This document shows, one piece after another, positions 1 to 43,300 of a stretch of 64,000 nt of DNA. The translations under genes and the position numbers were made by a program. The DNA is from Bolinopsis microptera (lineage: Eukaryota > Ctenophora > Tentaculata > Lobata > Bolinopsidae), in assembly GCF_026151205.1 (NCBI RefSeq), contig NC_087082.1:9370901-9434900 (forward strand). The letters are read 5' to 3'. Each line of letters opens with the position of its first letter. Within the stretch, counting starts at the first letter, position 1. Below the pieces are notes generated by a model, which did no database searches, was not told where the DNA came from, and saw only the letters and a program-made list of their open reading frames with translations.

Positions 1-3000
1 TTAGACAGCTTCACATGATAAATTTCAGTAACACTATTAGGTTTAACCCCTTTAATCGCGACCACCTATCAAATCAAATAGGTGATCATGATGATACTGA
101 TGCTGATTTGAATCCATGGGAAACAACGTCTAGTCTTCTAAATAACTGCAAATATTATACCGCGAACGCAATCAAAAATACGAAGGAGTATGAATTAAAA
201 GTTTTCTCGCTAAACGTTAGGTCACTTAATGGGAAAATTGAAGAATTTCGGGAGAATATAGATCAATACACAAAATACGACGTTCTCTGCTTCAATGAAA
301 CAAATTGTAACACGGAATGTTTGCCTTTTCAGGGAGAGGAGCTCGAACTAGACGGTTTCTATCCACCGTATGTTCAGACTCCCGCTAGAGCGTCAAATCG
401 TGGTGGAGGATTAGTCATATATGTTAACAAAAAACTATGTGAATTATCTGACATAAACGTTAAGAGCGCTCTATGTTGCCACGATAATCCTAAGATAGGA
501 GAATTCTTGGTTGCAGAACTTACCTTGAAAGGGCACAAAAACGCGTTAATCTGTAATATATATCGCTCTCCAAGTGGGGACTTGAATGGTTTCCTTGAAC
601 AATTGAAAATTTTCCTCCGTAACTTAGCAAGACATCGAAACAAAAATATCATACTGGCCGGTGATACTAACATAGACCTACTAGATTACGGGAAAATAGA
701 CTCTGTTACTAAGTATGTGGACACTTTAGCAGAGCACGGATTCGCTCCTGTGATATCAAGACCAACTAGAGTCACAGATCACAGTGCGACTATCATTGAC
801 CATATTTTCGTCAATAATTGCCACGCTGTTACAAAATCGGGAGTAATTTCTGAATCAATCTCTGACCACTTGGCAACTTTTGTCACAATTATGGTTGATC
901 AGAATAGGCTCAGTTGTAAACTTCAAGAAGATACAACAGAAACATCTTCTCGAGTAATAAACGATGACAGTATCAAAAAGTTCGAGAACGACATTTCTGC
1001 GGTAGACTGGAACTTGGTTAATAACTATGATTCTGTAGATGAAAAATTTGAGGCTTTCGATAAAAAATATAGTGAACTATACGACCGAAATTTCCCAATT
1101 AAGGCAAAAAAGAGTAAACCAGGCCGCCGTAAAAACACAAAGCCGTGGATCCAAGAATGGTTACGGTGCGCATGTGATCGCAAAAATAAATTTTATGAAG
1201 ATTTTGTCACAAACCCGACCACTGAAAATGATATTAGGTACAAGAAAATGAAGAAATTTGTGAATAAACACGTGGATAAGGCCAAAAACAAATATTACAA
1301 CGCGTACTTTACAAAATATTCTAGCGACAGCAGAAAACAATGGCAAATGGTTAATAACTTGTTAAACAGAAAGAAAAAAGGCAAAATTAAGATAAACAAA
1401 ATTAACTATAATGGGAGCGAGATAACAGATTCTCAGCAAATTGCGAATAGCTTCAATGACTATTTCTGCAATATAGCTGAGACTCTTAAGAGAGAAAATG
1501 GTCTCGTATGCTCCGAGGGCCGGACTATCGTAACAGAAACTCAAGATAGCAGATGCCAGCGGAGCATGAATCTAGAAGATTCGTCCGCATCAGAAATAAT
1601 TGAAATAGTTAAGGGTTTGAAGATTAAGTCGACTTCTGATATGAGTATACTTCCCCTGAAAAAAGTGAGCAATATACTTGCACCAGTGCTTAGCTGCCTA
1701 GTCTCTGCGTCTCTACATCAGGGGAAGTTTCCACATAAATTGAAAATCGCGAAAGTAATTCCACTTCACAAAGGTGGGTCACGTGCTGAAGTTTCAAACT
1801 ATCGACCTATCTCACTACTCTCATGTTTCTCAAAAATCTTTGAAAAAATTATGCAAGCGCGACTATTAGATCACTTAAAGACAGAGAAAATCCTATTTGA
1901 CTCTCAATACGGATTTCGGGCTGGGCATAGCTGCGAACATGCTTTACTAGAAGCCCAAAACCATATTCACAGGGCACTAGAAAAAAAGCAGGTCACAGCA
2001 CTGCTTCTATTGGACTACAGCAAGGCCTTTGACATGGTTGACAGCAGTATTCTTCTGAGAAAACTTGAGCACTATGGAGTTCGGGGGTTGGCTTTATCTT
2101 GGTTTGACTCATATCTAACCGATAGAGAGCAATACGTGAGCGTCAACAACTGCAAGTCCTCTCACCTCAAACTTAACTACGGAGTTCCACAGGGCTCCAT
2201 TCTCGGACCAATTCTGTTCATAATTTACATCAACGACCTTCCTCAGATTAGTAATTTAGCTAAACATATTTATTTCGCTGACGACGCAAACCTAATAATA
2301 AGTACAGATACTTTTGAACAACTTAATGCAATGGTGAATGAGATTCTGACTTTGATAATTGATTGGGCTACTAATAACGGGCTTAAATTAAATGCTAGCA
2401 AAACTAAATATATGATCTTTACAAATAAGAAAACTGAGGATATAGAAATCTACATGGGAGGTGAACGACTAAAGCAAAGTTATCACGAAAAGTTTCTTGG
2501 CGTGATCATTGATACCAAGCTAAATTGGGCCCACCACATTAGACATTTAGCCACTAAAGTATCTAGAAATGCGGGCATTCTCTACAAACTCAAAGGCTCA
2601 GTACCTAACAAAGCACTCAAGTTGATATACAACAGCTTTGTTCAGTCTCACTTGTACTATTGCTGCACAGTTTGGGGAACAAGATCGCTAAACTCCGTTA
2701 AAAGAGTCTTCTCGGCCCAGAAAAAGGGCATTCGCGCTGCAGATAACCAATACCACCGCTATTTTTATGACAAAGATCTGAATAGCACACCTTCACACAC
2801 AAAGGAAATTTTCAATAAACTAGAAGTATTAGCTTTACCGAACGTGATAGCTAAATGTATATTATGCTTAATGCACAAAGTTTATTCTAACACTGCACCA
2901 CCAAATATTATAAGAATGTTCACTGTTTCAAACTTAAACGCACCTAGAAGAGAACCTGAGTTCTTTGCAGTACCATTTAACCGTTTATGTAATTCAGACA

Positions 3001-3595
3001 AGAGCATTTCTTACATTGGGCCTAAGTTATATAACAAAACAGTCAACATCATTAACAAGGACATAAAATACGTCACCACTTGCCTACAAGACAAATTCCT
3101 AAATTCATTCAAGTCTACAGTCAGCAAGCATGTGCTTACTGCACAAGCACTTAACCCGGATGACAAGGACTGGAACAACTCAAATTTCGTACTTTTAGAA
3201 ATTTAAATAATTTGGTACAACATACGTTGATCATAATAACGAGCAACAAAACTTTAACCTCATAACGAAATATGACTATCTTCGAGCATTTTTTACAATG
3301 CTATCGCTACAGCGCAATTTCACTGTCATTTACAACTTTTAAAAGATAAAAATATCACCGCGCATTCTTCAGACCCTGTGTCGCTGTTCTAAATTTATGT
3401 CAAGAGATAAGAGTTATTTCAAATTCTTAATAGTACTATTTAAATTTGCTAATTGCGTAATCATATTTTATACATTATTAATATTTTATACATTGTGTGC
3501 ATATATTTATATTTGATTGTAATTAAAGATTTTAAGGCGTTAGTGCCGAGTAATGCCTTCGGGTAGTGCTCCTCAATCAATCAATCAATCAATCA
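1..3595 (+). mobile_element. LINE (CR1/jockey-type non-LTR retrotransposon), 5' end outside window
   Basis: A non-LTR retrotransposon whose endonuclease-reverse transcriptase reading frame is open from the left window edge to 3206. A roughly 390-bp AT-rich 3' UTR follows. It ends with a short hairpin (AGGCGTTA pairing imperfectly with TAATGCCT near 3533-3556) and a tail of tandem TCAA units ending about 3595, typical of CR1/L2-group LINE tails, where such hairpins are recognised by the reverse transcriptase. The element lies just downstream of the 3' end of the prolyl endopeptidase gene and points toward it. Clade assignment (CR1 group, possibly Daphne/Rex1-like) is inference from domain order and lack of RNase H. 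Confidence 0.9.
15..3206 (+). CDS. LINE ORF2: AP endonuclease and reverse transcriptase, apparently intact
   Basis: 1063 codons without a stop. The frame is still open upstream of the ATG at 15, so the true start may lie outside the window. Residues about 65-290 form an APE-type endonuclease (SLNVRSLNG, FNET, AGDTNID, SDHLAT). Residues about 530-820 form a reverse transcriptase with YRPISLLS, the DYSKAFD motif, GVPQGSILGPILF and the catalytic YFADDAN near residue 753. The C-terminal region carries the LINE thumb and tail (YYCCTVWG). The protein would nick target DNA and reverse transcribe its own RNA. No frame breaks are visible, so it looks recently inserted and possibly active; no ORF1 is in the window. 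Confidence 0.92.
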   Translation: MINFSNTIRFNPFNRDHLSNQIGDHDDTDADLNPWETTSSLLNNCKYYTANAIKNTKEYELKVFSLNVRSLNGKIEEFRENIDQYTKYDVLCFNETNCNTECLPFQGEELELDGFYPPYVQTPARASNRGGGLVIYVNKKLCELSDINVKSALCCHDNPKIGEFLVAELTLKGHKNALICNIYRSPSGDLNGFLEQLKIFLRNLARHRNKNIILAGDTNIDLLDYGKIDSVTKYVDTLAEHGFAPVISRPTRVTDHSATIIDHIFVNNCHAVTKSGVISESISDHLATFVTIMVDQNRLSCKLQEDTTETSSRVINDDSIKKFENDISAVDWNLVNNYDSVDEKFEAFDKKYSELYDRNFPIKAKKSKPGRRKNTKPWIQEWLRCACDRKNKFYEDFVTNPTTENDIRYKKMKKFVNKHVDKAKNKYYNAYFTKYSSDSRKQWQMVNNLLNRKKKGKIKINKINYNGSEITDSQQIANSFNDYFCNIAETLKRENGLVCSEGRTIVTETQDSRCQRSMNLEDSSASEIIEIVKGLKIKSTSDMSILPLKKVSNILAPVLSCLVSASLHQGKFPHKLKIAKVIPLHKGGSRAEVSNYRPISLLSCFSKIFEKIMQARLLDHLKTEKILFDSQYGFRAGHSCEHALLEAQNHIHRALEKKQVTALLLLDYSKAFDMVDSSILLRKLEHYGVRGLALSWFDSYLTDREQYVSVNNCKSSHLKLNYGVPQGSILGPILFIIYINDLPQISNLAKHIYFADDANLIISTDTFEQLNAMVNEILTLIIDWATNNGLKLNASKTKYMIFTNKKTEDIEIYMGGERLKQSYHEKFLGVIIDTKLNWAHHIRHLATKVSRNAGILYKLKGSVPNKALKLIYNSFVQSHLYYCCTVWGTRSLNSVKRVFSAQKKGIRAADNQYHRYFYDKDLNSTPSHTKEIFNKLEVLALPNVIAKCILCLMHKVYSNTAPPNIIRMFTVSNLNAPRREPEFFAVPFNRLCNSDKSISYIGPKLYNKTVNIINKDIKYVTTCLQDKFLNSFKSTVSKHVLTAQALNPDDKDWNNSNFVLLEI

Positions 3596-6700: not shown

Positions 6701-9700
6701 TCAACAATTTCACAGCAATCAGATAGAGTCAGTCATTACTTTACAGCCGACTAAATGATAGACGATAAAGTTGGTATCGGCATAACCCACAGTACGCAAA
6801 AATAATGAATCAAAACATGAGAATCATACCTTTAAAGGCTAAAACTGGGCTATTTTAGCCGCGAAAGATGTGCTTTTTACTAACACCATTATTTACACGC
6901 ATAAGTTTTTATTTGCTCTTGTTGCAATCGGATCAATACCTCCAGATTGAGTCAAAATTTATGGCTGAATTAATATTATCAAGAATTGGTAAAAAATCAC
7001 TGAAATAATTATTTGTCGCCCATACATTAAGTTTTTAAAAATTTTAGCCAGTGATTACTTTGTAGCCGACTAAATTTTAGCAAATAAAATATGTATCGCC
7101 ACTTCCAAAATTCTATTAAAAGTATACCCGTTACTTAGACAAAATTATTATTTTTCTAGCCAAACAACCGGAAAAGCTCCAGCGATGTAATATCTTAATA
7201 TCTTTCATTCAGGTTTATTTTAAAAACCGTATTGATTTGGAAGTTTAGTTACCCACCATCGTGATCAACTAATATCTTGAAGCTAATATCTAAAGACAGT
7301 GCTGTCATGATTGCTGTTGGGTTAATTTTTGGAGTTTTAGCTGTTCAGATCGCTCTGGTACTGGGTGTTTTACTGTGGCCTAAAAAAGTTGTAAGTATGA
7401 AAATTAATGCAAAACCTGACGCAGAGTTATACATACATAGTTGTTTGAACTTTGAATCAAAGATTTTATATTTATATTTATCATGATGAAATGATTGAGA
7501 ATAATGGAAAATGTCAATCGCTTCTAATTCAGGGTGAAGATGAAGACTCTTACAGAATTACCGGTGGTCACCTTCTTAACAAGACGCTCTAAAAGGAAAT
7601 ACCACAAAGTTGGAACCTATAGCTGGTTATGAAGGTCTCCCAGTAGTGATAGAATCACTAATCACTTTGCACAATAAACAACTCTCTGTTTCTTTTTTGT
7701 TTTTGGGAGCATGCTTGGTTTTAGGGTTTTGTTGATAGCCGTATTTCTTTTGCTAAATCAAAATAGCCATATTTTTTGTTATATAATAAAGAAGTTGTAA
7801 ATTTATAAAAGTAAAATTGAATGAGCTACCTGAGCTGTTAAGTTGTCGTCTCCCTTCGATAAGTCCATACTGTAGATAACACCAGGATTGATAAAGGACA
7901 TGAACTTGAAATATATCTGAAATAAAATGATTGTAAGTACGAAAACTATTCGTGTATTTCCTCCCGTTAAGAAGTTTCAGTTTAATACTCACCAAGAAAA
8001 TAATAATTGGGGTCGGCTCAGAGCACAAGGAAGAGCAGAACGAATCTCTCAATGTTATAAATTGAAAAATAATGGAATCAGCCGGCCGAACTGGATTGAC
8101 AGCTGCCAGCAAATATCAGCAGATCTGCCATGCAGACTCACGAAAGAATCATGGACACTGCCACTGAATCCTTCAGGATCATAAAGTAAACTCACAAAGG
8201 AATCCTGGACTCTGCCACTGTACCCCACGATGGAGCCCGGAGGTAAGTCCACAGCCTGGACTAGAGCTCCTGATTCTAGCTGGTGGATGTAGAGCTTGTT
8301 GACACAGTCCTCAGTGTAACAGGCCACTAACAGGTTACTTCTCACACATGCTATCCAGTCTAACACGCTCTCCTTCTCTGGGATTATGTCTTTCCAGTTC
8401 TCCTGAGAATATTGTCATTTTGTTACATTGTTACAGTTGAAGCTTATCTTTTCTAGAGAATTCTATATCAGAATTCTGATTTATTGGTTAGAAAATGCCA
8501 TGCACAACTCCAGATATTAATCATTAAGTCTTCTATTTTAATAATCTCTCTTTGACAGTGGTAAATGAATGGTTAAACGGCTGCCATAGCTGAAATATAT
8601 GGACTCCTTTCTGTTAAAATGCTGCGGTGAAATTGTATTTTTAGTAGTTTAGAATTGTGTGAAGGTTGCCGGAAATTAAGAAAGGCAGTGAGATACTTTT
8701 TATCTGTCTGTATTTTACAATTAGGTTAATTAAGTTTTAAGGAGCGGTACGACTTTCGAGTAATAGTGGATGAATTGCCCGACTGAACCAATTTCATTCC
8801 ACGTTGTGAACTTCAACCAACCATGGTCAGCTAAGGGCCCAACATTAGGTCATCACTTCTTTGGAACCGGAATATTACTGAATTCTTTACTTGAGTAGCT
8901 ACAATGACTTCAGGTTGTAAAAAATAAAAATGACGTCACCCAAATTTTAGTATGAAATATTTATAAATTCTGACCACCGTTTTTATACCTGTGAGGGGTT
9001 GTCCAAATCGATAGAAATGAGCTTGTAACGATCAGCTTTAAGGTTTGTCTTGAGATAGAAAACTCTTCCATTATTTGCAATATACTGAAAAGTATGACTT
9101 CATCAATAAGATAATCACAACAAAATACTGATCGCTAAACGAACCATTCCTTTTGTCGAAATCTCAAAAAGCTTTACTTTATAATTATCACAGAAAAATA
9201 ACCTACAACCATGATCAATAAAAAACTCACATCATATTCAGCCTCGAAGTTGTCGGCTATTTTAGTGAAGTTGAACTGGTGAGGTAAACCCTGGTCGGGG
9301 AGGTCGTGGACCCAGTACTTGTTAACCGGTTCACAACCGTTGCTGATGGACAGTAGGAGCACCTTACCACAGTCTGATACTTCACATCCTCTGATAAAAT
9401 ATAAGGTTCTAAAAAGGGACTTAAATGGACGAATAAAATGCCAATTTTGTTGTTTTTATATTGACGGGATCACGATTCGCGGAGGAATTTGACAAAAGGA
9501 AAAACAACTGCAGACTTACGGCATCCACTGGGGTTCGTCAGGTAGCTCCAAAACTAACACATCATCTGACTGAGAGGTGCCTAGACGGTGGTAGTACAGC
9601 TGAAATAGAATCTGGCGTCAGATTGGATATAGAAAAGAAATGAGTTTTATTTCTAAACAATTGTAAAAATGATGCATTGCTCGACAGGAGCGAGCGCGGA

Positions 9701-12700
9701 ACTATTACTCCTTACGTTGGTTACAGACGTTTACCAACCTTTGGACACCATGTACAGATGTTTTATCTCCGTTGTCCCATAGGCCCAAAGTTACAAGCTA
9801 GCTGGCTAAATGTTGGAAAAAAAGTAACTATGGTCTAAAAAGATCAACAACACTTAAGAAGATATATGCAAAACTGTCTTTGCCCAGCACATTTCTACAA
9901 AGATGGAGTTACTTAACAACTACCACTAAAATAATGAGCGTTCAATCGAAGGCCGCAGTGACTAATTCGACTTTTTCAGAGATGAATGAACATTCAAAAT
10001 TAGACACCTTCTGATGAATGTTGGAGTTAGTTTCAGTTCCCAAGTCTGAAGTTGCTGCTTTGGGGTACTTGTTGTAGAAGAGTCCTGTTACAATAACTTG
10101 TTAACAAGGCTGGGTTAACAAAATCATTCTAGCAATAACCGAAATTTATGTTGTTTAAATGCTGTGTAGATTTGAGTGGAAATCATAATTGTAATAATAT
10201 GATAATATGATCCAAACCTTTGTTATCGTGAGTCCAAGAGAGACAGGAGAATTTAACATGCTCCAAAACATCTTTTAACTGCTCTTTAGTATCGGTCTTC
10301 ATAAACTGAAATATTATATCAGAGGACCAGTACTTGAGCGGGTAAAAACAAGAAAAACATCACCACTCATCCCCGGTCCCTCATTTGTTTCAAAATAACA
10401 ACCCAACTATATGTCATAACTACTACAGTACCCAGTACCCACTCACCTTAACAGTTTTCCAGTCACTGCCAGACACGCTGATGGTGTAAGCCATGATCTT
10501 GCCGTCCTCGGAGAAGCTCTTGCATCCAACTGAAACTGTTCCATCTTCTGACAAGGTATTCGGGTCTAGAAATACCTCTCCTGGACTTTCTGGGCTATCT
10601 TGCTGGTAGAGGACACTGGGGACAAAGGAAGGTTTACGTAAGAGGGATATAGTTATCCATCTGAATTTATTTGTCCTAGAATATACTTAGAGAAATTAAC
10701 CAATTAATTATTGTCATATTAATTTTTCCTTAGATTTTGTGAACGTCAAAAATGATTTATTTTAAAAACGAATTGATATGATAATTTAGATTCAATAAAG
10801 GAAACACGAATGGAGTTGTATCAAACGATCAAAAAAAGTTTATCGATAGCCAACAAAATCTTAAAAAACCTAGTATAGTAACTTAATAAAAAAAATCTTT
10901 ACATAAACTGAAATTCGTTTAGGATCAGTGTTCTTCACCGTGGAAGTTCAAGTCTGGGGCGGCATATGGCCAAAACCGATCCGGCGTTTAACTTCATTTA
11001 TTCAGTTCATATTCGTAAGGAGAATTGATAGTGAACTCATCAAATTTAAACATTGAACTTAAATAAGGTGAACTTAAGTCCTGGGAAATTTGAAAAGTTG
11101 ACATCGATAGTTCATCATTAACAGTTCAACTCCACCGTTCTGAACTGAGAGGGTAAGAATTTCGGGAAAGAATCTGCATTCCTGCTTTCTCGCCTTAGAT
11201 CACGTAGTTTCACGCCGCGGCGCAACAGCTCGCACGGTCCCAGAGTATTTTGGCACGCCCACTTTCCTGTGAAATTTTGGGCAAAGTTCCTTCTGCACGT
11301 TTCACAGCTATTTGTTTGTTCTTCATTTTCAGTGGTTTGAAAAGTTTCATCAATTGTTTGTGAAGCTCCATCAGTGGTTTGAACAGTTTGAGAAGCGTTA
11401 TCAGTGGTTTGAACAGCTCCCTTGGTTTGAACAGCTCCCTTGATTCGAACAGGCACCTTGGTTTGAACAGCTCCCTTGGTTTGATCAGCTACCTTGGTTT
11501 GAACAGCTCCCTTGGTTTGAACAACTGCCTTGTTTCGAACAGGCACCTTGGTTTGAACGGCTCCCTTGGTTTGAACAGCTCCCTTGGTTTGAACTGCTTC
11601 AGTAATTTGAACAGCTCCCTTGGTTTGAACAGCTTCCTTGGTTTGAACAGCTCCATTGGTTTGAACAGCTCTCTTGGATTGAACAGCTCCCTTGATCTGA
11701 TCAGCTCCCTTTGTTTGAACAGCTTCCTTGGTTTGAACAACTCCATTGGTTTGAACAGCTCCCTTGGTTTGAACAGCTCCCTTGGATTGAACAGCCCCCT
11801 TGGTCTGATCAGCTCCCTTGGTTTGAACAGCTTCCTTGGTTCGATCAGCTCCCTTGGTTTGAACAGCTCCCTTGATCTGATCAGCTCCCTTGGTCTGATC
11901 AGCTCCCTTGGTTCGAACAACCTCTATGGTCTGAACAGCTCCATCGGTATGAATTCCTTCAGTGGTCTGAACAGCTCCTTCGGTACGAACTCCTTCAGTG
12001 GTCTGAACAGCTCCATTGCTTTGAACAACTTCTATGGCTTGAACAGCTCCCTTAGTCTGGACTGTTCCCTTGGTTTGAACTGCTAGTGCTCCATTGCTTT
12101 GAACAACTCCATTGGTATGAACTGCTTCAGTTGTTTCAACAGCTCCCTTGGTTGGAACAGCTCCATTGGTTTCAACAGCTCCCTTGGTTTGGACATCTCC
12201 ATTGATTTGAACAACTCCATTGGTATGAACTGCTTCATACCAATGGGGGGTTTGCGGTTTTGTAAGTTGTTCAATCAAAGACCTATCGAGCGATTTCCTT
12301 TCTTCTAAATAGTGGAACACAGCTTTGGATCGTGCTAAAAACTCTTCCCTTTCCGTCCAAGTGAGAGACTTTTTAGCTGGGTTGTGCTGTAGTTCATCCC
12401 TTACCTTCCCAATATTCTTGCTGATGATATCCTGTACTGACTTGTGCAGACTAGATGATTTCAGCAGTTTGTATAGAGAGTTTTTCCCGGTTTTCTCGCG
12501 AAGGAAATCCTTTTTAATGGCGTCTGCTATAAGCTGGGTCACCTTGACGGTCAGGGCTAAATCATCTTCAATTTTATCGAGGCTCTCCAAGTCTATCATT
12601 ACACAAGTAAAATCTCGACCACTTGACAACTACGCAACATGTACAACACTAACGGGGAAAGAATGTTTGTGACTCTGTTTGAGGAGATCCAGTCCTATTT

Positions 12701-13731
12701 TACTTTTAGGGTATCGGCACTCCTTACATGCACATCGCACAATTACATGCAATATGTGTGACCTCTCTGACGTGTAAACTGTCTAACTCTAACAAGTAAA
12801 CGGTAAAAAATAATATATAAAAAGTTACGCAGATGCAAATTAAATATGTATATATTTCTCTCACAAGGAAGTTTAACATTAATAAGGTATGAGAACGCGA
12901 GCTAGCTCCATGTATCGTGTTAAAACGTCACACGATACCTTATAAAAACATAGAGAATGTGTCCACCCCCATCTAACTGTACCTAATTACTCGCCATTCT
13001 AGAGCTTTCATACACAAATAAGGTCATCAGTACTAGTAAGCTATCATAATATGCTTATATTTACACCTCCGGAGGTGTGGATTACTGGTATTGGCTAGAA
13101 ACACTGCTATCCATAGTAACGACTTAGTAACGGCTTGTAATCAACTGATGTTTCCGAATAGTAATCTGGAGCCATGGCTATTATCATTGGAAAAGCCGTT
13201 GAAATATTACAAATGACGCAATTTTATGACTAATTTATCACGTTTTAATCACTGAGGGGTTATGATTAGTAAACTCACGACAAGTAAACGACAAGTAAAC
13301 TCACTATTGGTTCTGAAGGCCCGAGTTGTAGTTGTAGTAGAACTTTTCCCCTCTCTTAAAAGGGCAGCCTTGTTTGGGAAAGTCGAACAGGTCCACCAGT
13401 TTCTCGTGGAACTTCTTCTTGACACAACAATTCTCCAGATACGGCATCGTTATCTTGTTTTGTAAGTCTACATATTCTTTAGTTTCTGCTGCATCTGGGT
13501 CCTCCATCCACCGGTATGGGTCATCTACCTGGTGATATTTACATGGTGATAGTTACCAGGTGATAGATACCAGGTTACAGTTGCATGGAGATATTTACCA
13601 GGTCATAGTTACCAGGTGACAGTTACATCATACATAGTGATAGTAACCTAGCAACAAAAAACATTTACCTGGTCACCATGGAGAGTCTCGACGCAATCAC
13701 ATCGTTGTGGGGTTGGGTACTCAATCTTCAT
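3755..13731 (-). CDS. PREP: prolyl endopeptidase (prolyl oligopeptidase, S9A), 15 exons, complete
   Basis: Cytosolic serine peptidase that cleaves short peptides after proline. Exons on the minus strand: 13731-13669, 13528-13305, 10615-10447, 10305-10218, 10084-10008, 9599-9520, 9390-9231, 9084-8989, 8402-8196, 7916-7830, 5697-5584, 5337-5189, 5016-4900, 4376-4243, 4095-3755. All junctions are GT-AG, all phases agree, and the total is 701 aa (vertebrate enzyme 710). The ATG at 13731 gives [10 protein letters not shown], aligned with the known N-terminus. The N-terminal segment and seven-blade propeller (about residues 70-430) precede the alpha/beta hydrolase domain. The catalytic Ser lies in GGSNGG (about residue 551), Asp in DHDDRV (634) and His in SGHGAG (671), so the triad is intact. 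Intron 2 holds a hexapeptide-repeat gene and intron 10 an antisense microprotein gene. Exon 9 has two tandem donors. Confidence 0.97.
5698..7306. other. intron 10 of PREP, left part: no gene recognised
   Basis: AT-rich sequence between PREP exon 11 and the small antisense gene. Words such as TAGCCGACTAAA recur in degenerate form between about 6680 and 7080, suggesting an eroded repeat, but I found no terminal repeats or coding signal. Short open frames here (for example 5894-6238) lack splice context or family resemblance. Confidence 0.5.
7307..7592 (+). CDS. putative spliced single-pass membrane microprotein, 47 aa (or last exons of a larger gene)
   Basis: Not a family I recognise. The exon from the ATG at 7307 to 7390 encodes a hydrophobic stretch ([20 protein letters not shown]) followed by LLWPKKV. 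It ends at a canonical GTAAGT donor. A 142-bp intron ends in CTAATTCAG, and the second exon 7533-7592 continues in phase with [19 protein letters not shown] and TAA. An AATAAA lies 81 bp further on. The layout suggests one transmembrane helix, a basic stop-transfer patch (PKK) and a short acidic tail. It is nested antisense in PREP intron 10. The frame is open upstream to a stop at about 7262, so this could instead be the C-terminal membrane anchor of a longer spliced protein whose 5' exons I could not find. Confidence 0.5.
7673..7678 (+). terminator. AATAAA downstream of the microprotein gene
   Basis: Canonical polyadenylation hexamer 81 bp after the TAA at 7590-7592 on the same strand. It supports the reading that the two short exons end a real transcript. 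Confidence 0.5.
8134..8219 (-). repeat. tandem duplication of the PREP exon 9 donor region
   Basis: Two 32-bp copies (8188-8219 and 8134-8165, 27 of 32 positions identical, period 54 bp). Each contains AGTGGCAG.GTCCA.GATTC.TT followed by GTGAGT. The first copy is the exon 9 end used in the reconstructed protein. The second provides another GTGAGT donor exactly 54 bp downstream with an open frame between them. Confidence 0.8.
8403..8988. other. PREP intron 8: nothing recognised
   Basis: 586 bp of AT-rich intron between exons 8 and 9; I see no coding, repeat or RNA-gene signal. Confidence 0.5.
10997..11002 (-). terminator. AATAAA downstream of the hexapeptide-repeat gene
   Basis: AATAAA on the minus strand, about 115 bp past the stop codon at 11118-11120, in the orientation needed to end that transcript. 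Confidence 0.45.
11118..12599 (-). CDS. hexapeptide-repeat protein nested in PREP intron 2, 493 aa, intronless
   Basis: Function unknown; no family recognised. I chose the ATG at 12599; the frame opens slightly further upstream only with non-ATG codons. Residues 1-about 110 are charged and look helical ([40 protein letters not shown]). Residues about 115-395 hold roughly 46 degenerate hexapeptides around A-V-Q-T-K-G, encoded by an 18-bp tandem repeat, with one two-residue slip (AL). The C-terminus has a possible zinc-binding pattern C-x2-C-x13-C-x6-C starting at CETCRRNF, then a basic segment. Bulky hydrophobics are nearly absent from the repeats, so they are probably extended or a stalk. The gene lies on the same strand as PREP, inside intron 2. 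An 18-bp period always keeps frame, so the long open frame alone is weak evidence; unique coding ends and an AATAAA at 11002 support it. Confidence 0.62.
   Translation of the reverse strand: MIDLESLDKIEDDLALTVKVTQLIADAIKKDFLREKTGKNSLYKLLKSSSLHKSVQDIISKNIGKVRDELQHNPAKKSLTWTEREEFLARSKAVFHYLEERKSLDRSLIEQLTKPQTPHWYEAVHTNGVVQINGDVQTKGAVETNGAVPTKGAVETTEAVHTNGVVQSNGALAVQTKGTVQTKGAVQAIEVVQSNGAVQTTEGVRTEGAVQTTEGIHTDGAVQTIEVVRTKGADQTKGADQIKGAVQTKGADRTKEAVQTKGADQTKGAVQSKGAVQTKGAVQTNGVVQTKEAVQTKGADQIKGAVQSKRAVQTNGAVQTKEAVQTKGAVQITEAVQTKGAVQTKGAVQTKVPVRNKAVVQTKGAVQTKVADQTKGAVQTKVPVRIKGAVQTKGAVQTTDNASQTVQTTDGASQTIDETFQTTENEEQTNSCETCRRNFAQNFTGKWACQNTLGPCELLRRGVKLRDLRRESRNADSFPKFLPSQFRTVELNC
11400..12240 (-). 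repeat. 18-bp coding minisatellite (hexapeptide repeat)
   Basis: About 46 copies of an 18-bp unit that on the plus strand reads roughly GAACAGCTCCCTTGGTTT with point variants. Open frames on the opposite strand and in a second minus frame across this block are by-products of the repeat and are not annotated. Confidence 0.9.
12600..13304. other. PREP intron 2, upstream of the repeat gene
   Basis: No coding sequence seen. A hairpin-like pair GTATCGTGT/ACACGATAC lies at about 12917-12941. This stretch would hold any promoter of the nested hexapeptide-repeat gene, but I cannot assign specific sites. Confidence 0.4.
13529..13668 (-). repeat. PREP intron 1 made of degenerate splice-site-like repeats
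   Basis: Much of this 140-bp intron consists of degenerate units of about 14-15 bp reading (minus strand) ATCACCTGGTAACT or similar. The real donor (ACCAG|GTAAAT) and acceptor (CACCAG|GTAGAT) are themselves variants of the same word. Confidence 0.7.
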
Positions 13732-14502
13732 GTTCCCGGGCGGGTTAGAAACAACTCCTACAAAGTATTAACGTTTAATGATACACAGTAAGTTACCAAC
13801 AGCTTTGTTTATAATCATGAAATTGTGTTACATATGTGCACCTCATCAGATAATACTGGTGCAATATTTTCATAATTCATCTCCGAATAAAATATAGTGT
13901 ACAGCCGAACCTATTTTAGCCATGGATAATGGGGATGAAAAGATGGACATTATAACCGAGAGACCATGTAAAACTAAATGGAAGTATGACGAAAATAGGT
14001 TTGACTGTATGTTAATAGTACTAGTAGACGTAATGAAAATCAATTTGTTATGATGGGTGAACAGTAAACGTATTCGAAAAATATCACTCACAGAAATCTA
14101 CAATATGTCCAATCAAACATGATCCTAAAACTGGGATTGTTCAAGGACTTCAATTTCCACAAAAATCCCTCGACATTGAAAACATCACCAAATTATATTC
14201 TGCTGCGATAAATTCTGATAGAAAATAAATAATGTGCTAAATATTGATTTGTTCGGTGAAAATGCAAGCAGTGATAATTGTATTTTATTAATGTACATGC
14301 AGTTTAAACGTCAGAGTAGTAACAATAACAACGCCTTCTGCTCAGAGACAGTCGTGTTCGAATACACACAAACGAACAAAAATCATTCCATCACAAAATC
14401 CCTCCCTTGATTCACAAACCATTCCTGAACTATCTGCCCTTCCCTTCAAATTGAAACACTGAAATGCCCATACAGAGACACACACAGTTATCTCATATTA
14501 TC
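13732..14502. other. intergenic region upstream of PREP and downstream of JIP
   Basis: About 770 bp holding the expected PREP 5' end and promoter and the likely JIP 3' end. A TTTGTAG just upstream of the PREP ATG could be an acceptor for a 5' untranslated exon or leader. No CpG-rich block or convincing TATA element stands out. The 73-residue minus open frame at 13870-14091 has no support. Confidence 0.45.
14284..14289 (-). terminator. candidate JIP poly(A) signal beyond the minisatellite
   Basis: AATAAA on the minus strand about 215 bp past the far end of the 23-bp array and about 2.1 kb past the JIP stop codon. The repeat unit itself contains no AATAAA, so this is the first good canonical candidate I see for the JIP transcript. 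Confidence 0.4.
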
Positions 14503-16368
14503 TACTGGTCACACTGCAGGGTCACTACTGGTCACACTGCAGGGTCACTACTGGTCACACTGCAGGGTCACTACTGGACACACTGCAGTGTCACTACTGG
14601 TCACACTGCAGGGTCACTAGTGGTCACACTGCAGGGTCACTACTGGTCACACTGCAGGGTCACTAGTGGTCACACTGCAGGGTCACTACTGGTCACACTG
14701 CAGGGTCACTACTGGTCACACTGCAGGGTCACTACTGGTCACACTGCAGGGTCACTACTGGTCACACTGCAGGGTCACTACTGGTCACACTGCAGGGTCA
14801 CTACTGGTCACACTGCAGGGTCACTACTGGTCACACTGCAGGGTCACTACTGGTCACACTGCAGGGTCACTACTGGTCACACTGCAGGGTCACTACTGGT
14901 CACACTGCAGGGCCACTACTAGTCACACTGCAGGGTCACTACTAGTCACACTACAGGGTCACTACTGGTCACACTGCAGGGTCACTACTGGTCACACTGC
15001 AGGGTCACTAGTGGTCACACTGCAGGGTCACTACTGGTCACACTGCAGGGTCACTACTGGTCACACTGCAGGGTCACTACTGGTCACACTGCAGGGTCAC
15101 TACTAGTCACACTGCAGGGTCACTAGTGGTCACACTGCAGGGTCACTACTAGTCACACTGCAGGGTCACTACTAGTCACACTGCAGGGTCACTACTGGTC
15201 ACACTGCAGGGTCACTACTGGTCACACTGCAGGGTCACTACTAGTCACACTGCAGGGTCACTACTGGTCACACTGCAGGGTCACTACTGGTCACACTGCA
15301 GGGTCACTACTGGTCACACTGCAGGGTCACTACTGGTCACACTGCAGGGTCACTACTGGTCACACTGCAGGGTCACTAGTGGTCACACTGCAGGGTCACT
15401 AGTGGTCACACTGCAGGGTCACTACTGGTCACACTGCAGGGTCACTAGTGGTCACACTGCAGGGTCACTACTGGTCACACTGCAGGGTCACTACTGGTCA
15501 CACTGCAGGGTCACTACTGGTCACACTGCAGGGTCACTACTGGTCACACTGCAGGGTCACTAGTGGTCACACTGCAGGGTCACTACTGGTCACACTGCAG
15601 GGTCACTACTGGTCACACTGCAGGGTCACTACTGGTCACACTGCAGGGTCACTACTGGTCACACTGCAGGGTCACTACTGGTCACACTGCAGGGTCACTA
15701 CTGGTCACACTGCAGGGCCACTACTAGTCACACTGCAGGGTCACTACTAGTCACACTACAGGGTCACTACTGGTCACACTGCAGGGTCACTACTGGTCAC
15801 ACTGCAGGGTCACTAGTGGTCACACTGCAGGGTCACTAGTGGTCACACTGCAGGGTCACTACTGGTCACACTGCAGGGTCACTACTGGTCACACTGCAGG
15901 GTCACTACTGGTCACACTGCAGGGTCACTACTAGTCACACTGCAGGGTCACTAGTGGTCACATGACACTGCAGGGTCACTACTAGTCACACTGCAGGGTC
16001 ACTACTGGTCACACTGCAGGGTCACTACTGGTCACACTGCAGGGTCACTACTGGTCACACTGCAGGGTCACTACTGGTCACACTGCAGGGTCACTACTGG
16101 TCACACTGCAGGGTCACTACTGGTCACACTGCAGGGTCACTACTGGTCACACTGCAGGGTCACTACTGGTCACACTGCAGGGTCACTAGTGGTCACACTG
16201 CAGGGTCACTAGTGGTCACACTGCAGGGTCACTACTGGTCACACTGCAGGGTCACTACTGGTCACACTGCAGGGTCACTACTGGTCACACTGCAGGGTCA
16301 CTACTGGTCACACTGCAGGGTCACTACTGGTCACACTGCAGGGTCACTACTGGTCACACTGCAGGGTC
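14503..16368. repeat. 23-bp minisatellite, about 81 copies
   Basis: Nearly perfect head-to-tail array. Each 23-bp unit has two GGTCAC words (spaced 13 and 10 bp) and a central CTGCAG. Variant classes are ACTACTGGT, ACTAGTGGT and ACTACTAGT, plus rare units with GGGCCAC or ACTACAGGG. One unit near 15957 carries a short insertion. The long plus-strand open frames across it only reflect a unit lacking stops. The array starts 14 bp beyond the JIP stop codon. Confidence 0.97.
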
Positions 16369-16382
16369 CCTCCACGCCAACA

Positions 16383-19300
16383 CTACGACACGATGGTCCT
16401 AGGCCCACTGACATCCCAAGCTATCATGTGACAGTGATCAGTGAACCCTCTGATGATCCTGCCCCTTCTGATGGTGCTGAGAGTCCCCGCGTCCATGTCC
16501 CTGTAGGAGATGTAACCCTCACCCCCGCTCAACACTATACGAGTACAGGCTGATCTCCGTCTTAACAACACCTCGCTGTTAGTGCTGCTGTTGGACATCT
16601 TGCGAGGCAGTGAGGTGAGGTTGTCTTCCATGCAGTACCGAGCTACTATTATGTACCGGACAGCTCCCTGGTGACCGTGGAGGGAGATCCTGGCCTCGTC
16701 CCGTACTGCAAACATCGGGGTCTGGTCAGCTGGGGGTTCCAGTACGTAGGAAGCTGGAGAGAGGGACTTCAGAGGTATTGTTACCATGGCACCCTGAGGG
16801 AGGTTATCTTTATTACTTACCAACTATTTCAAAAGTGCAGATTGATAAATTCCTAAGATTTGAGTACTACAAAAATATCCGGATTCCATTTTTCGCATCT
16901 CTTTCTCCCTGTACGTATCTGCCAAACTTAACACCTTATAAATAAGAGCCCAATAATTGAGATTACTCAAACCTGACTGGTCCCGATCCACAAGAGGTTG
17001 TTGTAACACAGCACTGCAGATACTCTTATCAGAGTAGTGAACCCGTACGATACTGACACTGGCTTCAGAACTTCTTCCATGTTAACCTGCAGGGTGAGGG
17101 ATTTATAATTATTATTTAATATTTATATTTTATCATAATATAGAACTCATCATATAACGTGGTCAATAACGACACTACAGTTGTATTGTAAAGTATCAAA
17201 ACTAATAGATGCATGTATTTATAGGCTAAGCTTTTAAGGCGAATTTTAACTTCATTTAAAAGCACACTTAGGCAAATACATTATTTCAAATATGTTAAAA
17301 TGTAAATAGAAACCTGTTGAAGAGGCTGCATAGTGTTGGAGTCGAGGAGTGTAAGTACACTACTGAATCTACAGGCTATCCAGACTCCGGTACCCAGAGG
17401 TACCATGTGGGTAACCAGTGCACGTTCACCCTCAGCGAACACGTGATTCTCCTGCAAGAAGAAGGAGTTTTAGAGAAATTATGTTTTGTATAGTTTTCCA
17501 ATAGCTTGGATGATTCTTGGAAATAATCCAACCTAATACCTAATACTTTGAAATTAAGATTTTTAATTTTGAAATTTCCTGAATATCTTATTTTTGACTT
17601 TCATAATTCAAATCTGATGAATATTTCCCTTTAGACAGTAATCGACTACTTATCTTTTACAGCTTTATAATATTGTTCCTATTCTCTTGTTTATTTACAC
17701 CACAAAAACTCGGGAGCCAGAGTAGCAATTCTATCTGCACAATTAATTCTAAAATCACAAAATTAATTCTAAAATCGCCGCATATTTTACCAGAAATGTT
17801 TTACGCCCTACACAGGGTTTAAGAACTTCCCGGGTCACTTTAATGATGGTAAATGTTGACCCCTTAAAGTATCGAACTTTAATTCTATAAGTTATTTAGA
17901 GACTTAAGAATTTATGAAATTAAATATTAACTTAATATTCTCCGAATATTTCGTAGAGCCGATAATAGATTTAGGGTTACTATATTTCTCAGAGTGGTAT
18001 TTACTATTTTTGGCTTCAAGATGGACTGAAATGAACCAGTTTTCCTTTGCTCACAAACTCAATCTAATTCTAATTCCGGGTAGCGGATATACCCTCATAA
18101 TATATACAGCATTTTTTTTTTTTTTTTTTTTTTTAGAGAGGCTGGGCCTGGTTGGCCCACGAGAGGATAGCATATGAATGCTTTGCCTACCTCTGGGGTA
18201 TGGCAGTCCTGTGGGAGGATGCCAGTGGAATCAAGATGTGTAATCAAGGATGATGGTAAGTGTTGTGGGGTGTGTCATAGATAGTGTGGAAGAGAGAGGC
18301 GAAATAAGACGGCGTTAAAGTAGTCGCTATGTTACACCTGTCTGGTCCAACTCCTCTGGCACTGGCACCACTAAGCGTTTAGTGTGGTTTGTAAAGTTGA
18401 CAATGGTGGAGATGTGTTGGTTGTCGAATATGTCATTGACAGAGAGGTAGTAGTCCCGGAAATATTGACCTCTTATTTGGGCAATAGCCGGGCACTGTCC
18501 GAGAAAGTGTGAGACAGTCTCCTCTTCGTCGCCGCATTTAGGACAAGCACTTGTGTCTGATATGCGAATGGTGTGTAGGTGTTTGTTGAGGCCACAATGT
18601 CCCGTGATGAGGTGCACTGCAGTTCTATAATTTTGTCTGTTGTTACTGAGTGTAGTGTTGAGATTTTTGATGATGTTGATGTTTTTATGTCCAAGTGTCA
18701 GTTTAGTGTGTCTGGGACCATCAGTAATCCATGATTCTTGATTAAGTTTTGTGACTTTGTCGTTGATCAGGCGTTTGATGTAAGATTGTGGAATTGGGCA
18801 ATTCAAAGTGGATTCACTGGTTGTACCATTTTTGGCCAGCTCGTCTGCTTTTTCATTACCCCACAAACCAATGTGTGCAGCTATCCATCTGATCTCTAAG
18901 GTGTTAGTGGATCCGAGTGTATTGAGGGTGTCGTAACAGTCTCTAGTAGTCCTACTCCTCGTTGAAGGTGAGGATATGGCTTGAATAGAGGAGAGACTGT
19001 CTGACCATATGATGATGTGTGTGTTTGTATAAGTTGATAGATATTTACAAGCTTCGATGATGGCAGTGAGTTCTGTTTGATAAACGGTGCAATAATCGGG
19101 AAGCTTGAATGATCTTTCATCTAGTGTAGTGTTGTTGTTGTCTGTGGTGATAATATAACCAGCCCCGCTACCTGAGTCTGTGCGTGACCCGTCTGTGTAG
19201 CAGGTGATGGTTTCACTGGGGATGTTGTCGATGGTGTTTTGGAGTGAGCCTCTATATCCAATGTTGTCAGCTCCAGGAGTGGTGACCGTGAAGCGTCGTT

Positions 19301-22300
19301 CAAGCATCATGGTTGGTATAGATAGGTCTCTCTCTGCTTTGGGTGGTATGTTGAGATCTACCATGAATTGTTTGTTGATAGTGGTGAGTTGTGATGGTAC
19401 CTTTTCTGGGGGCGATAGTTTCGAGGGTTAGGCTTCCATAAGCTTGAAGCCTGGCTGTGCCCTTTGCTGCTTCACCTCTCAGGAAAAGTATGATATCTGG
19501 AGTGTTAGTGAGGTGGTTCAGTGCGATGAAGGGAGTACTAGGCATGGCACCAGACATCATTCTCAATGCCAATGCCTGAACTCGTTTGAACTTCCTCGCG
19601 TTGGTGTCTGTTTGGGTTGCTCTAATCCATATACTACAGCAGTATGATAGAATAGGTCTGATGACAGCGGTGTACATCCATTTGCATGTTTTAGGGCTCA
19701 TACCCCAAGTGGGGCCGACAGCTCTTCTACATTGCATAAGGGATGCCGTAGCTTTTTTGGTGGTATTGGTGATATGTTCATTGAAATTGAGCTTGCTGTC
19801 GAGGGTCACTCCTAGGAATTTGGCAGATTTGGATAGACCTATATTGTTATATAGTAGTGTTGAAAGTATTAAAATACTTTCAACACTACTATATAACAAA
19901 TAATTTGAGCCTGAAGATGGCGTTGACGCCGAAAATTTGCCCTTACTCCTAACTTCCTTGTTTCACTTGTCCTTGTCTCTTCCAACCGGATAATATCCAG
20001 ATATCAGTATTTCAATCATGAGACTAATAAACAGCGAACTACTCCGTTATTTGAAAAGTTCAAGGAGGTCAACTTCCTTATATGGTTATGTCACGTGATC
20101 GAAACATTTATTCGCCGATAACTCGCCAGGGGAGCATATTAACCTTGTGTCATGTGGGGTAATTCGGAATCAGCCTCCAAAAAATACATCGATTGAGATT
20201 GGTTTCAACGGTCGCGGTCGGGACCCTTCTAGAAAAATCTAGAAGTTCGAGTGTAGGGTGATTTAGCACGCTTGCATATTTTAATTAACTCAACAAGATC
20301 ACATTAGGCACTAGGTTACCTAACTAGGCTACTAGGCTACTGAACGAGCACATGACGTGTTGCCGGGGAGATAATTTTGATGATGGTATGTGCTTATTTA
20401 GTGGTTGTACAGCAATACTAAGGTAATGGCCGATGGGACTACTGCGGACCCTCTACCGGCCAAACCTTGTTAACAAAGCCGCAGTCAAGGTTCAGTAGAA
20501 TTGATAATGCTGCACTGTACTTAATTATGAAATTCCAATATTGTGTGGTTTACGTTTTTCAGTTTCCAATCGTTCCATTTAGTAATTCCTGGTTACTAAA
20601 ATCGGCTGAGATTTACTGAACTTCAATTATAAATATTTGCGATTTTAGTATTCCCGACACGAGCAATTTTCAAAGTGTTTTCTGAAATGTTTTTCTAAAA
20701 AATACTTTTCTCCGTGTTTCAAGCGAATTCAATCATTTTGAGCCAATAAAAATTGTATGATTTTTGGTAATTAGCTAATTAATCGATTTTTTCAGACGGA
20801 TCCGTCTACTATACTACTATACTAAGCAGTATCCTTAGACATAATACCGGTGTCATTACAGTTTATAATTGTAAATGCATGCTATATTATGCTCCTAATT
20901 TTAATGATAAAAGATCTATACTCCCGTGTCATGAGTCCGGCTCAGAGCCCGCATTATTACAGTTTTAATATATTTCCTATAACATTCCTAACTTTTTTTG
21001 CGTAATCAAAACGTTATCACCGTTGCTATTTTCGCTATTTTCGCCATCAACAACTGAGAATTTGTAAGCTTTAAAGAATTGGGGGGAATGTCTAACATTT
21101 GTAGGGCCATTTTAGACAACAGAGTTAAGCCATGAATCAGATTCTTTCATCTATAATATTTGTCATACTCGTTAAACACCCAGACATTATTTCAGGTTTT
21201 GGTATTGGATACCGTGCTAATTATTTATCAATTCATTCTTAGAAGCATACTACAGGCAGGCCATACATACAGATCCTGGCATTATGGCCGTTATAGGGCC
21301 ACCATAATGCCCGAGTGCCGCAATGGTGCTATCGGGATCCGGATGTATGACCACAAGCACAATGGACATTATACACTATACAGTTATACCATGTTCTAGC
21401 TTTGGGGCTCATTATTATCTGCTGCGTACATAAAGACATAATGCACATATTATAGATATTATATGCTCATAGAATTATGTCTTAAAAGTGCTAAATTACG
21501 TTTTACAATTCAGAACTTATAAATATATTATATATTGCTCACTGATATTGTACATTTATTTTGCCAATATTATTGGTTCCTTTGCTCGTGGTTTCATTAT
21601 TTGACCCAGCTGGGTACTAGAAATCATTAAATATATTAATTAATATCGTTAAAAAAAGAAGACCGATCTCCTAAATATTCACACCTTTCAGTATCATAAC
21701 GCACCTGGCCAGTGGCCAGGTGCTCCTTCATAATTTTTTTAATAGACATTTAAAACCGTTTCAATGTATCGAGAACACCCTGTATAAATTGTTTTCAAGT
21801 TGAGATAAGGTTGCATCATTTAGTATTTTTATAAGCTTTTTACTTACAATGACAAACTAAAACAGCTCGGTCACTATTTAACGCCTAATACAGACATATC
21901 TAAAGTTTAGCAAGATATCAGAGGATGACAATCTTCAGCGAGGGCGAAGGAACAGGAATCGGCGATATCCTGATATCAGCCTGGCTCCTCATTTTCTGTC
22001 TGATATCAACATGCCTGAACCCACTGGTATTCCTCTACAACTACAGACGTCCCAACACTGTACAGAGAATAGTATACAGAACCCTCTCCTCCCTGGACTT
22101 CTACATGTGTTTGATAGTGCCGGTGGTGGTGATTCACAACGCTCTGACACCTGTTGACTGTCATGGTTCGTCTCCACAAGAGAGGGGTAATTCGACTATT
22201 TTGTGGTGTTCTAGAAACGCAACCACACTCGACAAAGTCATCTCCTCAACAACATGGCCTTGTGTGTATCTGCCGCCCATCCTCACTGCAGTGTTGACCT

Positions 22301-40300: not shown

Positions 40301-43300
40301 ACATCTTCTGACCACCCCATAGCGAAGTAGAGTCTCGCTCGTTGCGCCAGCACAGCAGAGAGTTGGTATTTGGAGGAGTATATCCCCTGATCGGCGGCTT
40401 ATCAGGGAGAGACAACATGAACTTTGTGAGCTTATCTTTGAAGTGCTCTAGATCTTGAATGACATTCAGATGGTAGGGGATTGCATTCCAACTCATTTGA
40501 CAACTCTGCAAATGAGTTGTCAAACAAGGTGAGGTTTGCTGTTGAACTGGTTCTACGTTTTGATGGAATTACTGCAAGGTTTCCAAGCCTTGGGCGTGAA
40601 ACAAATAGAACGTTCAGATCATTGCTGGTCTTTCCGTGGAGGATTTTCCACATATGGAGAATGATGAATCGCTCCCGCCTTCGTTGAAGAGACATCAGAG
40701 ATAGATAGACCAGGCGATCCCAGTAGTGGAGATCGCGCATTCCTGATATTCTGGCGGTGAATGCTTTCTGTACACTCTCCAGTTCTTGGATATCGCTGAT
40801 TTTTGAGGGATGCCATAATGGACAGCAATATTCAATCAGACTTCGAACCATTGATTTGTATAGCGTCAGCATGATGGAGTGAGATCGTGTGTGAAATACA
40901 CTGAGAACCCATGATGCTTTTTGGCGAGCTTTATCTGCAATGGCTCGTATGTGAGGGGACCAAGAGAGATCACTTGACACTATGACGCCTAAATCCCTGA
41001 GCTGATGTATTGGCTCAAGTATGGTGTCTTTGGAAACTGAGTATTGATAGTGTTCAACCACAAATGGAAGTTCAGATAGTACATATTGGTGGTTGAATTT
41101 ATGACACATGTACTCAAATTTGTCTTTGTGAAGGGCCATACTATTTCTTTCAGACCAGTCAATGACATTTTGCAGATCTTCTTGGAGGAGCTTGACGTCA
41201 TGCTCCGATTTGATAGCAATGGATATGCGAGTGTCATCAGCAAAACATCGAATTATAGAGTGCATGATACAATGTTCGATATCATTGATAAAAATCAAGA
41301 AAAGGATCGGCCCCAAAACCGTACCTTGTGGAACTCCGCTGATTATCAGTGCAAGGATGGACAGATGACCGTCAACAACAACTGCTTGTTTCCGGTCTGA
41401 GAGGAAAGATTCTATCCACTTTATGATTTTAGGATGGATTCCATAGAGTTGGAGCTTTCTCAGTAGGAGTTTGTGATCGACTTTATCGAAAGCCTTGGCA
41501 TAGTCGAGGTATATTGAATCAAAATCTGAATTGTTGCTCAGAGAATCCAAAACGTCATCAAAATGGTGGAGAAGTTGAGTAAGGCAACTCCGGCCAGATC
41601 TAAATCCGTGCTGCTTACTACATATGAGGTTATTGATCTCCAAATAGTTAACCAGCTTTTTTCTTATCACCCTCTCGTATACTTTAACCACATGAGAGGT
41701 GAGTGATATAGGTCGGTAGTTAGCTGGTTTGGCTCGACTATCCTTCTTGTGGAGAGGAAATACGTGTGAGAACTTATAGAAACTAGGGACCTCCCCAGTA
41801 ACTAAAGAGCGGGACCAGATGATGTGCATTGGTTCTGCTAGGGCTTTCTTACAGCTGTACAAGGTTCATGTGTATTTCACTGTATTATTCACATGTATTT
41901 GGTATTGTAGGGACAGTGCTCAATAACTGACAACAAAGGAAAAACTTTTCCTGTTTCGTCACGTGACACATATTTTGAAGTTTTCTCTGATTTATAACAG
42001 TATAACAGCTATGGTCAGCAATTAAACGGCTAGTACACTGCACATAAATGGTAAAGTTGTCCAACCTAAAAAGGCATATACGGTAATATTGCCATGGTAA
42101 CATTACCATATACAGTAATATTGTCATGGTAACAGTGCACTAGCCACATGTAGTGTTTACTGTGTATGAGATTAGACGATTGTCGCAGTGATTTAACAAG
42201 CAGTAAAATCGTGCTAAAATAGCCTGGTTTATTATTGTAACATCTAAGTAGTAAATATTTGTATTTATCGTGCCAGCAGATCAGCAATTAACTGTAAATA
42301 ACATCGTACTAACTACTAATAATTCTAAGTGTGATCATGCTTCATGCTAATGTTTGAGATGTATATGTTTGAGATGTGTGTGTGTGTGTGTGTGTGTGTA
42401 AGATGGATGTTTTCTAAATATGTAGATTTCTAATCGGTGTTATCCTTCAAGTTTAGCACGCTTTAAGTGTGGCAAAATAAGGTAGAAAGTAGTTCTCAGT
42501 AGGGAATACTAGAAATAACTATGAAGCATTAGAAAGTATAAGGAAGCACTAGAACGCATTAGGAAGTATCAGGAATTTCTAGTAGGTATGTAAGAAGTAG
42601 GACGGAAGTGTAGAATGACTACTCACGTCGATATGTCGCCGCTCCAGGTCTCTGTGATCCTTCTCCAACACCACCATTCTGCCTTCCAAACTCTGAACTG
42701 TAAATAATAAATCACGTACTAATTCTGAGTGACGTAATTCTTAAGCGGTTGGACCTTTGCCAGATTCTTGAGCTGGAGCTTGGTCAGATTTAAATATTTA
42801 AACATGGTGGTTTAAGAGCATAATTCCCCACATAATAATATTTAGAGTATAGGGATTAGGGACAAAAGGATTTCGCGATTATTTTGGCCAAAATTCGCGA
42901 TACCGCGATTTTTAACAGACTATACATTAAACTTTGCATAAAATTTGTCGCAAATAATGGGAAAAATCGCGATTCTGTACATGCCGCGATTTCCTTTTGT
43001 CCCTGATAGGGATGTTTTACTTCAACAATGTCTTCTCGTCACTGTGAACAATATTACGATAATAGATATCGGCAATAACTAAGGCCTTAGAAGAATTTTT
43101 AGAACGTTTACTAGAACGTATGCCCGTCCTCTCAACTCCTCAGAAAAAGGAAATTAGTTTTATGTTACACGCGGCATTCCGAACATATCATCCATCATGC
43201 GTATAATTCATAATATAATATACTTATATACACTAAACATACGTGACAATCTCTACTCGTCAAAGTTTATTACATTCTACAGTACGGTGTTTCCGTGTTT

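Follow-up and report, generated by a model that had tools for sequence, protein, structure and literature searches.

HEPN ribonucleases (RNases) cut RNA with an Rx4-6H motif that sits at the end of the penultimate helix (helix 3) of the domain (PMC3710099). They include HepT of the HEPN/MNT pairs, HepS, the sacsin HEPN domain, Las1 and Csm6/Csx1; in HepT, an RNase, the motif takes the form RX4HXY (PMC7641770). In eukaryotes HEPN proteins have expanded in a lineage-specific manner, with Swt1-like proteins in Daphnia, KEN in Oikopleura, paREP1/8 in Caenorhabditis and DZIP3 in Nematostella and oyster, as described in PMC3710099, a source that also names C6orf70 and Ire1 as membrane-anchored HEPN RNases and predicts that membrane-bound eukaryotic HEPN proteins act on RNA at the endoplasmic reticulum. 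Here we describe a gene of the lobate comb jelly Bolinopsis microptera that encodes an N-terminal helical domain resembling HEPN, a long tail of hexapeptide repeats and a Cys-rich end. It lies in an intron of PREP, within a stretch of 64,000 nucleotides (contig NC_087082.1, positions 9,370,901 to 9,434,900), hereafter the window.

The explanation that we favour, with moderate confidence, is that the gene belongs to a comb-jelly family of HEPN-type endoribonucleases, some copies of which are membrane-anchored, the window copy being soluble and equipped with a flexible tail built from a minisatellite. The analysis shows the open frame, the gene family, a conserved motif, the predicted fold and the constraint on the domain; RNase activity, dimer formation, a part in defence, the spacer role and the way in which the tail arose are inferred.

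A dispersed gene family

Relatives were sought in the whole genome (264.65 Mb, 232 contigs), one of whose frames, L036 for a glutamate receptor, is close to but distinct from the Mnemiopsis receptor ML032222a in the PDB (E 1.9e-128). BLAST of the N-terminal 123 residues yielded four further matches (E 1.1e-11 to 3.8e-8), and the use of relatives as further queries together with a reading of the regions raised the count to 14 loci, which, like all locus counts from these searches, is a lower bound and does not include C8:4.213 Mb, where a fragment matched weakly (E 0.045). The N-terminus is therefore not unique, contrary to a first-pass annotation of the window. The frame is open through domain and tail in nine of the 14 loci and interrupted in the other five (Table 1), although the interruptions at C2:4.882 and C6:1.985 Mb could instead be introns. 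An in-frame ATG precedes the domain in seven of the nine open loci.

A protein tree of 12 rows, built without the broken copy on C9 and the near-identical copy at C6:20.433 Mb, groups the window protein with the C2:9.27, C9 and two C11 copies (support 88/90). The two main clades recognize each other in a profile-profile comparison (probability 96, E 3.9e-9). The alignment of the C6:20.098 Mb copy with that at C6:20.433 Mb extends over 3.2 kb at 94% and takes in a phospholipase-D-like neighbour, which fits a segmental duplication. These two HEPN-like frames (L065 and its copy L015) and a third at C2:4.882 Mb (L060) lie directly downstream of phospholipase-D-like frames on the same strand. The neighbours match PLDc_2 of Pfam (E 3.8e-28 and 3.9e-15), with PLD6 and PGS1 as candidate names; they were not taken as a clue to function. 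Members L059, L060, L061 and L062 of the second clade share a C-terminal module (consensus FHCWNMIKLDPSLQ..ISEDVDGLFEGLLP), and a Pfam scan of one such tail, from the interrupted C2:4.882 Mb copy, gave no family.

Relatives were found neither in viral contigs (48 pattern matches with query A5, 12 with the window domain) nor in prokaryote genomes (41 and 147 pattern matches), so these scans, which detect close relatives only, yielded no donor.

Predicted fold and the Rx4H motif

AlphaFold predicts the N-terminal domain to be a helical bundle (predicted local distance difference test score, pLDDT, 90.6) with helices at residues 4-9, 13-31, 42-48, 53-72 and 81-107. The predicted model, as distinct from a solved structure, displays the HEPN layout, an all-helical arrangement of two hairpins in which an insert separates helix 2 from helix 3. 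R67 and H72 are both retained in 10 of the 12 aligned family members and are located at the end of the penultimate helix (53-72), the published place of the HEPN motif. In these features the window protein is like the known HEPN RNases, from which it differs in that its sequence is too distant for any curated profile to pass its cut-off. The Tyr of the HepT motif RX4HXY (PMC7641770) is also absent, the window sequence reading RDELQHNP. On the basis of the model, the N-terminal domain looks like a divergent HEPN domain, an assignment that the first-pass annotation did not propose.

Several observations weigh against this assignment and the family reading built on it. None of the family members reaches the cut-off of a HEPN profile in Pfam scans; for PF18735 (HEPN_RiboL-PSP) the best member scored 18.8 bits, compared with a curated cut-off of 28.4, and neither the window protein nor the genome scan gave a match. 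PF18738 (HEPN_DZIP3) matched nothing in the protein scans or the genome, but its genome search was equally empty in all 14 control genomes. YggD and MtlR are among the best structural rows. In addition, the open frames of the C2:4.873 and C6:1.987 Mb copies lack an ATG ahead of the domain, which may reflect an upstream exon or damage, and the term single-exon is therefore not applied to them.

The same structural results could be explained by a helical domain other than HEPN, such as a bundle that binds proteins; the conserved R-[ND]-x-[LIV]-x-H would then have a structural role. The best Foldseek E value was only 0.17, helical bundles can by chance attain structural Z scores of this size, YggD and MtlR stand among the best rows, and the window protein has no significant profile match. 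Arguing against a non-HEPN bundle are the HEPN proteins that occupy 13 of the first 19 rows of the structural search, the spacing and place of the motif, which are as published, and three family members that weakly hint at a HEPN Pfam family. We consider this alternative unlikely. Other candidates suggested by the profile searches were rejected: BCNT (E 0.11, N-terminus) and HTH_55 (E 6.5, whole protein) were both below the Pfam cut-off. PADLOC assigned no family to four of five family proteins, and PDC-S20 was dismissed for the fifth (E 0.035). A PDB sequence search returned nothing for profile A1 and one irrelevant match (E 1.7) for A4.

Constraint on the domain

When every pair among the 12 rows is compared, the first, second and third codon positions have identities of 0.44, 0.57 and 0.32, the last of which is close to the 0.26 of random sequence; the alignment was protein-based, which favours this order of positions. 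In a branch test, the codon positions were fitted separately on the fixed tree of the five-member clade. The window branch has 0.48 changes per site at positions 1+2 versus 0.97 at position 3, and of 60 codon bootstraps 58 have position 3 as the faster. The corresponding values of the other end branches are 0.28/1.39 (C9), 0.15/1.14 (C11:13.088 Mb) and 0.26/0.66 (C11:17.144 Mb), whereas C2:9.27 Mb runs the opposite way (0.19/0.12). The branch figures are rough, because the five clade rows include two broken copies and third positions approach saturation. From the faster position 3 it was concluded that selection acted on the protein encoded by the window domain, though less strongly than on the C9 copy. 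A neutral decay of the N-terminus, named in the first-pass annotation as an outcome that would speak against a gene, is thus disfavoured, position 3 having evolved about twice as fast as positions 1+2 on the window branch.

The hexapeptide tail and the C-terminus

The tail consists of a tandem array for which Tandem Repeats Finder gave a period of 18, 45.8 copies and 76% matches. Parsed in frame, it contains 45 hexapeptide units from residue 123 on, with A-V-Q-T-K-G as the commonest unit and one interruption of two residues, in agreement with the estimate of about 46 such repeats made at first pass. The mean entropy of the repeat at codon positions 1, 2 and 3 is 0.28, 0.83 and 0.71, a measure by which no protein-level constraint was found; since amino-acid replacements occur as often as silent changes, nothing beyond the frame and the overall composition seems to be maintained. 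Between its domain and a hydrophobic end, the broken C9 relative carries a repeat of a different kind and of greater length. Long, unrelated 18-bp-type hexapeptide arrays occur in other open frames (L069, C7:14871496-14872173; L074, C6:10.228 Mb; L076, C1:16.626 Mb). They comprise an acidic QDEGDD-type tail on a zinc carboxypeptidase frame, an EEETAP-/SGAVSS-type array open on both strands and an SAQPKS-type array; this genome may be prone to form such tails. Given the different repeat of the C9 relative and the unrelated arrays, the tail is best read as a coding minisatellite. Judged by its sequence, a flexible, stalk-like character of the repeat is plausible. Hexapeptide-query matches were also seen as inverted pairs about 5-14 kb apart (C1:16.63, C3:20.39, C4:15.10, C6:7.64, C6:12.49, C9:0.22 and C10:12.81 Mb), as if near both ends of a large transposon.

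The C-termini of the paralogues differ from that of the window protein, in which a Cys-rich end is present as first annotated (Table 1; spacing counted by eye). The possible zinc motif seen at first pass is no more than this Cys spacing. The relatives at C2:9.27, C9:13.66 and C6:1.99 Mb combine a HEPN-like domain with a hydrophobic segment (19-residue hydropathy maxima of 2.34, 2.75 and 2.76), as do C6orf70, also named ERMARD, and Ire1. The window copy differs: its maximum of 0.84 leaves it without an anchor or an evident signal peptide, it has no transmembrane-like segment, and the Pfam scans gave no match to the families of C6orf70 or Ire1, including the C6orf70/DUF4209 profile (PF13910). 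The idea that an ancestral membrane end is hidden nearby in another frame was discarded, as tblastn of seven relatives against positions 9001-14500 matched the N-terminal domain, all other matches having E values of at least 0.19.

The first-pass annotation had envisaged a stalk and a possible zinc motif at the C-terminus, features that would suit a structural or surface protein. The long repeat of Thr, Lys, Gln and Val and the spaced Cys residues agree with this picture, but a surface protein without anchor or evident signal peptide, conserved in its N-terminal bundle rather than in its repeat, is highly improbable.

More serious, though still improbable, is the possibility that the window gene is a dying copy, once functional and now loosening, in which the repeat and the odd C-terminus are minisatellite or read-through debris and nothing is made or needed. 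It would account for the interruption of five of the 14 loci, for a window branch that is the longest of its clade in the 12-row tree (1.49 versus 0.19-0.86), for a repeat free of amino-acid constraint, for a C-terminus without a relative in the genome and for the loss of the hydrophobic end that clade relatives possess. A dying copy would, however, hardly be expected to keep a frame of 493 codons intact where relatives are broken, to retain R67 and H72, and to change more slowly at positions 1+2 than at position 3 in nearly all bootstraps.

The setting in PREP

Both exons that flank the frame are recognizable as prolyl endopeptidase (E 5.4e-26 and 1.5e-15), in agreement with Pfam. As the pair stops and resumes at residues 97 and 99 of 1h2w (Table 1), the open frame is nested within a single PREP intron on the same strand. 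The analysis thus bears out the first-pass description of an unrecognised, intronless-looking gene of 493 codons with a repeat tract inside a PREP intron. In the local intron composition, the chance of 122 stop-free codons is 5e-5 and that of 98 codons 4e-4. Three of the six reading frames of the array are open or nearly open (0, 1 and 4 stops), so its openness is little proof and the non-repeat parts count. The AATAAA that had been assigned to the gene is present, but across the 3.4-kb locus, both strands included, the motif occurs five times with 4.1 expected, a frequency at chance level.

Table 1 Features of the window locus and loci of the gene family
Feature	Position	Strand	Basis or remark
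HEPN-like N-terminal domain, residues 1-108	12276..12599	(-)	Paralogues, AlphaFold model, structural matches
R67-D-E-L-Q-H72, candidate HEPN Rx4H RNase motif	12384..12401	(-)	12-member alignment; end of helix 53-72
18-bp tandem array, ~45 A-V-Q-T-K-G-like hexapeptides	11405..12234	(-)	Tandem Repeats Finder and in-frame parse
Cys-rich C-terminal end, 62 residues and stop, C-x2-C-x13-C-x6-C	11118..11306	(-)	Single genome match, itself
Intronless open reading frame, ATG to stop codon included	11118..12599	(-)	493 aa
PREP exon upstream of host intron	13307..13537	(-)	Ends at residue 97 of 1h2w
PREP exon downstream of host intron	10447..10614	(-)	Starts at residue 99 of 1h2w
AATAAA, 115 bp past stop	10997..11002	(-)	Count at chance level
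Open loci	Window; C2:9.272, C9:13.656, C2:4.873, C2:4.880, C6:1.987, C13:14.465 Mb		
Open loci, near-identical pair	C6:20.098, C6:20.433 Mb		
Interrupted loci	C9:13.655, C11:13.088, C11:17.144, C2:4.882, C6:1.985 Mb		

A transposon origin was rejected. Positions 10400-13400 hold just eight pairs of short, imperfect inverted repeats (14-22 nt), and the host intron gave no blastn match to nine family loci at E 1e-3. About 1 kb upstream of the upstream PREP exon, at 14502-16368, lies an array of 81 copies of a 23-bp unit (96% matches). The open frames at 3-3203 (+), 18330-19427 (-), 40435-41865 (-) and 49151-50968 (+) encode reverse transcriptase or RNase H domains and are probably retroelements; the last contains a KD-rich array of period 6 (49505-49695).

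Proposed function and significance

In the proposed scheme, the window gene is one member of a dispersed family of a lobate comb jelly, and its N-terminal HEPN-like bundle, by analogy with known HEPN RNases, would cut RNA through the Rx4H motif (R67, H72), probably as a dimer, independently of metal and in response to stress or in defence. In several relatives the hydrophobic C-termini would act as membrane tethers. The window copy, devoid of such an anchor, would have acquired its hexapeptide tail by slippage of the 18-bp minisatellite, and the tail would serve as a disordered spacer leading to the Cys-rich end.

With the eukaryotic HEPN expansions described in PMC3710099 the ctenophore family has in common diverged paralogues, some of which lack the catalytic motif. 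Unlike them it remains below the Pfam recognition cut-offs, and where that paper lists TPR, NACHT, DEATH and other partner domains, the ctenophore proteins have hydrophobic or hexapeptide tails. The expansions are interpreted there as signs of defence. For ctenophores, the 2025 paper on the immune genes of Mnemiopsis found neither a bona fide Toll-like receptor (TLR) nor a canonical NOD-like receptor (NLR), and the term HEPN is absent from its main text (PMC11797021). Searches of the open-licence literature for HEPN together with ctenophore or Mnemiopsis turned up cnidarian work and no ctenophore HEPN family. Animal HEPN expansions are already known; the addition proposed here is a ctenophore family with hydrophobic or hexapeptide tails. 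If the HEPN reading is true, this family would add a very early animal branch to the expansion pattern and would supply candidate RNases there.
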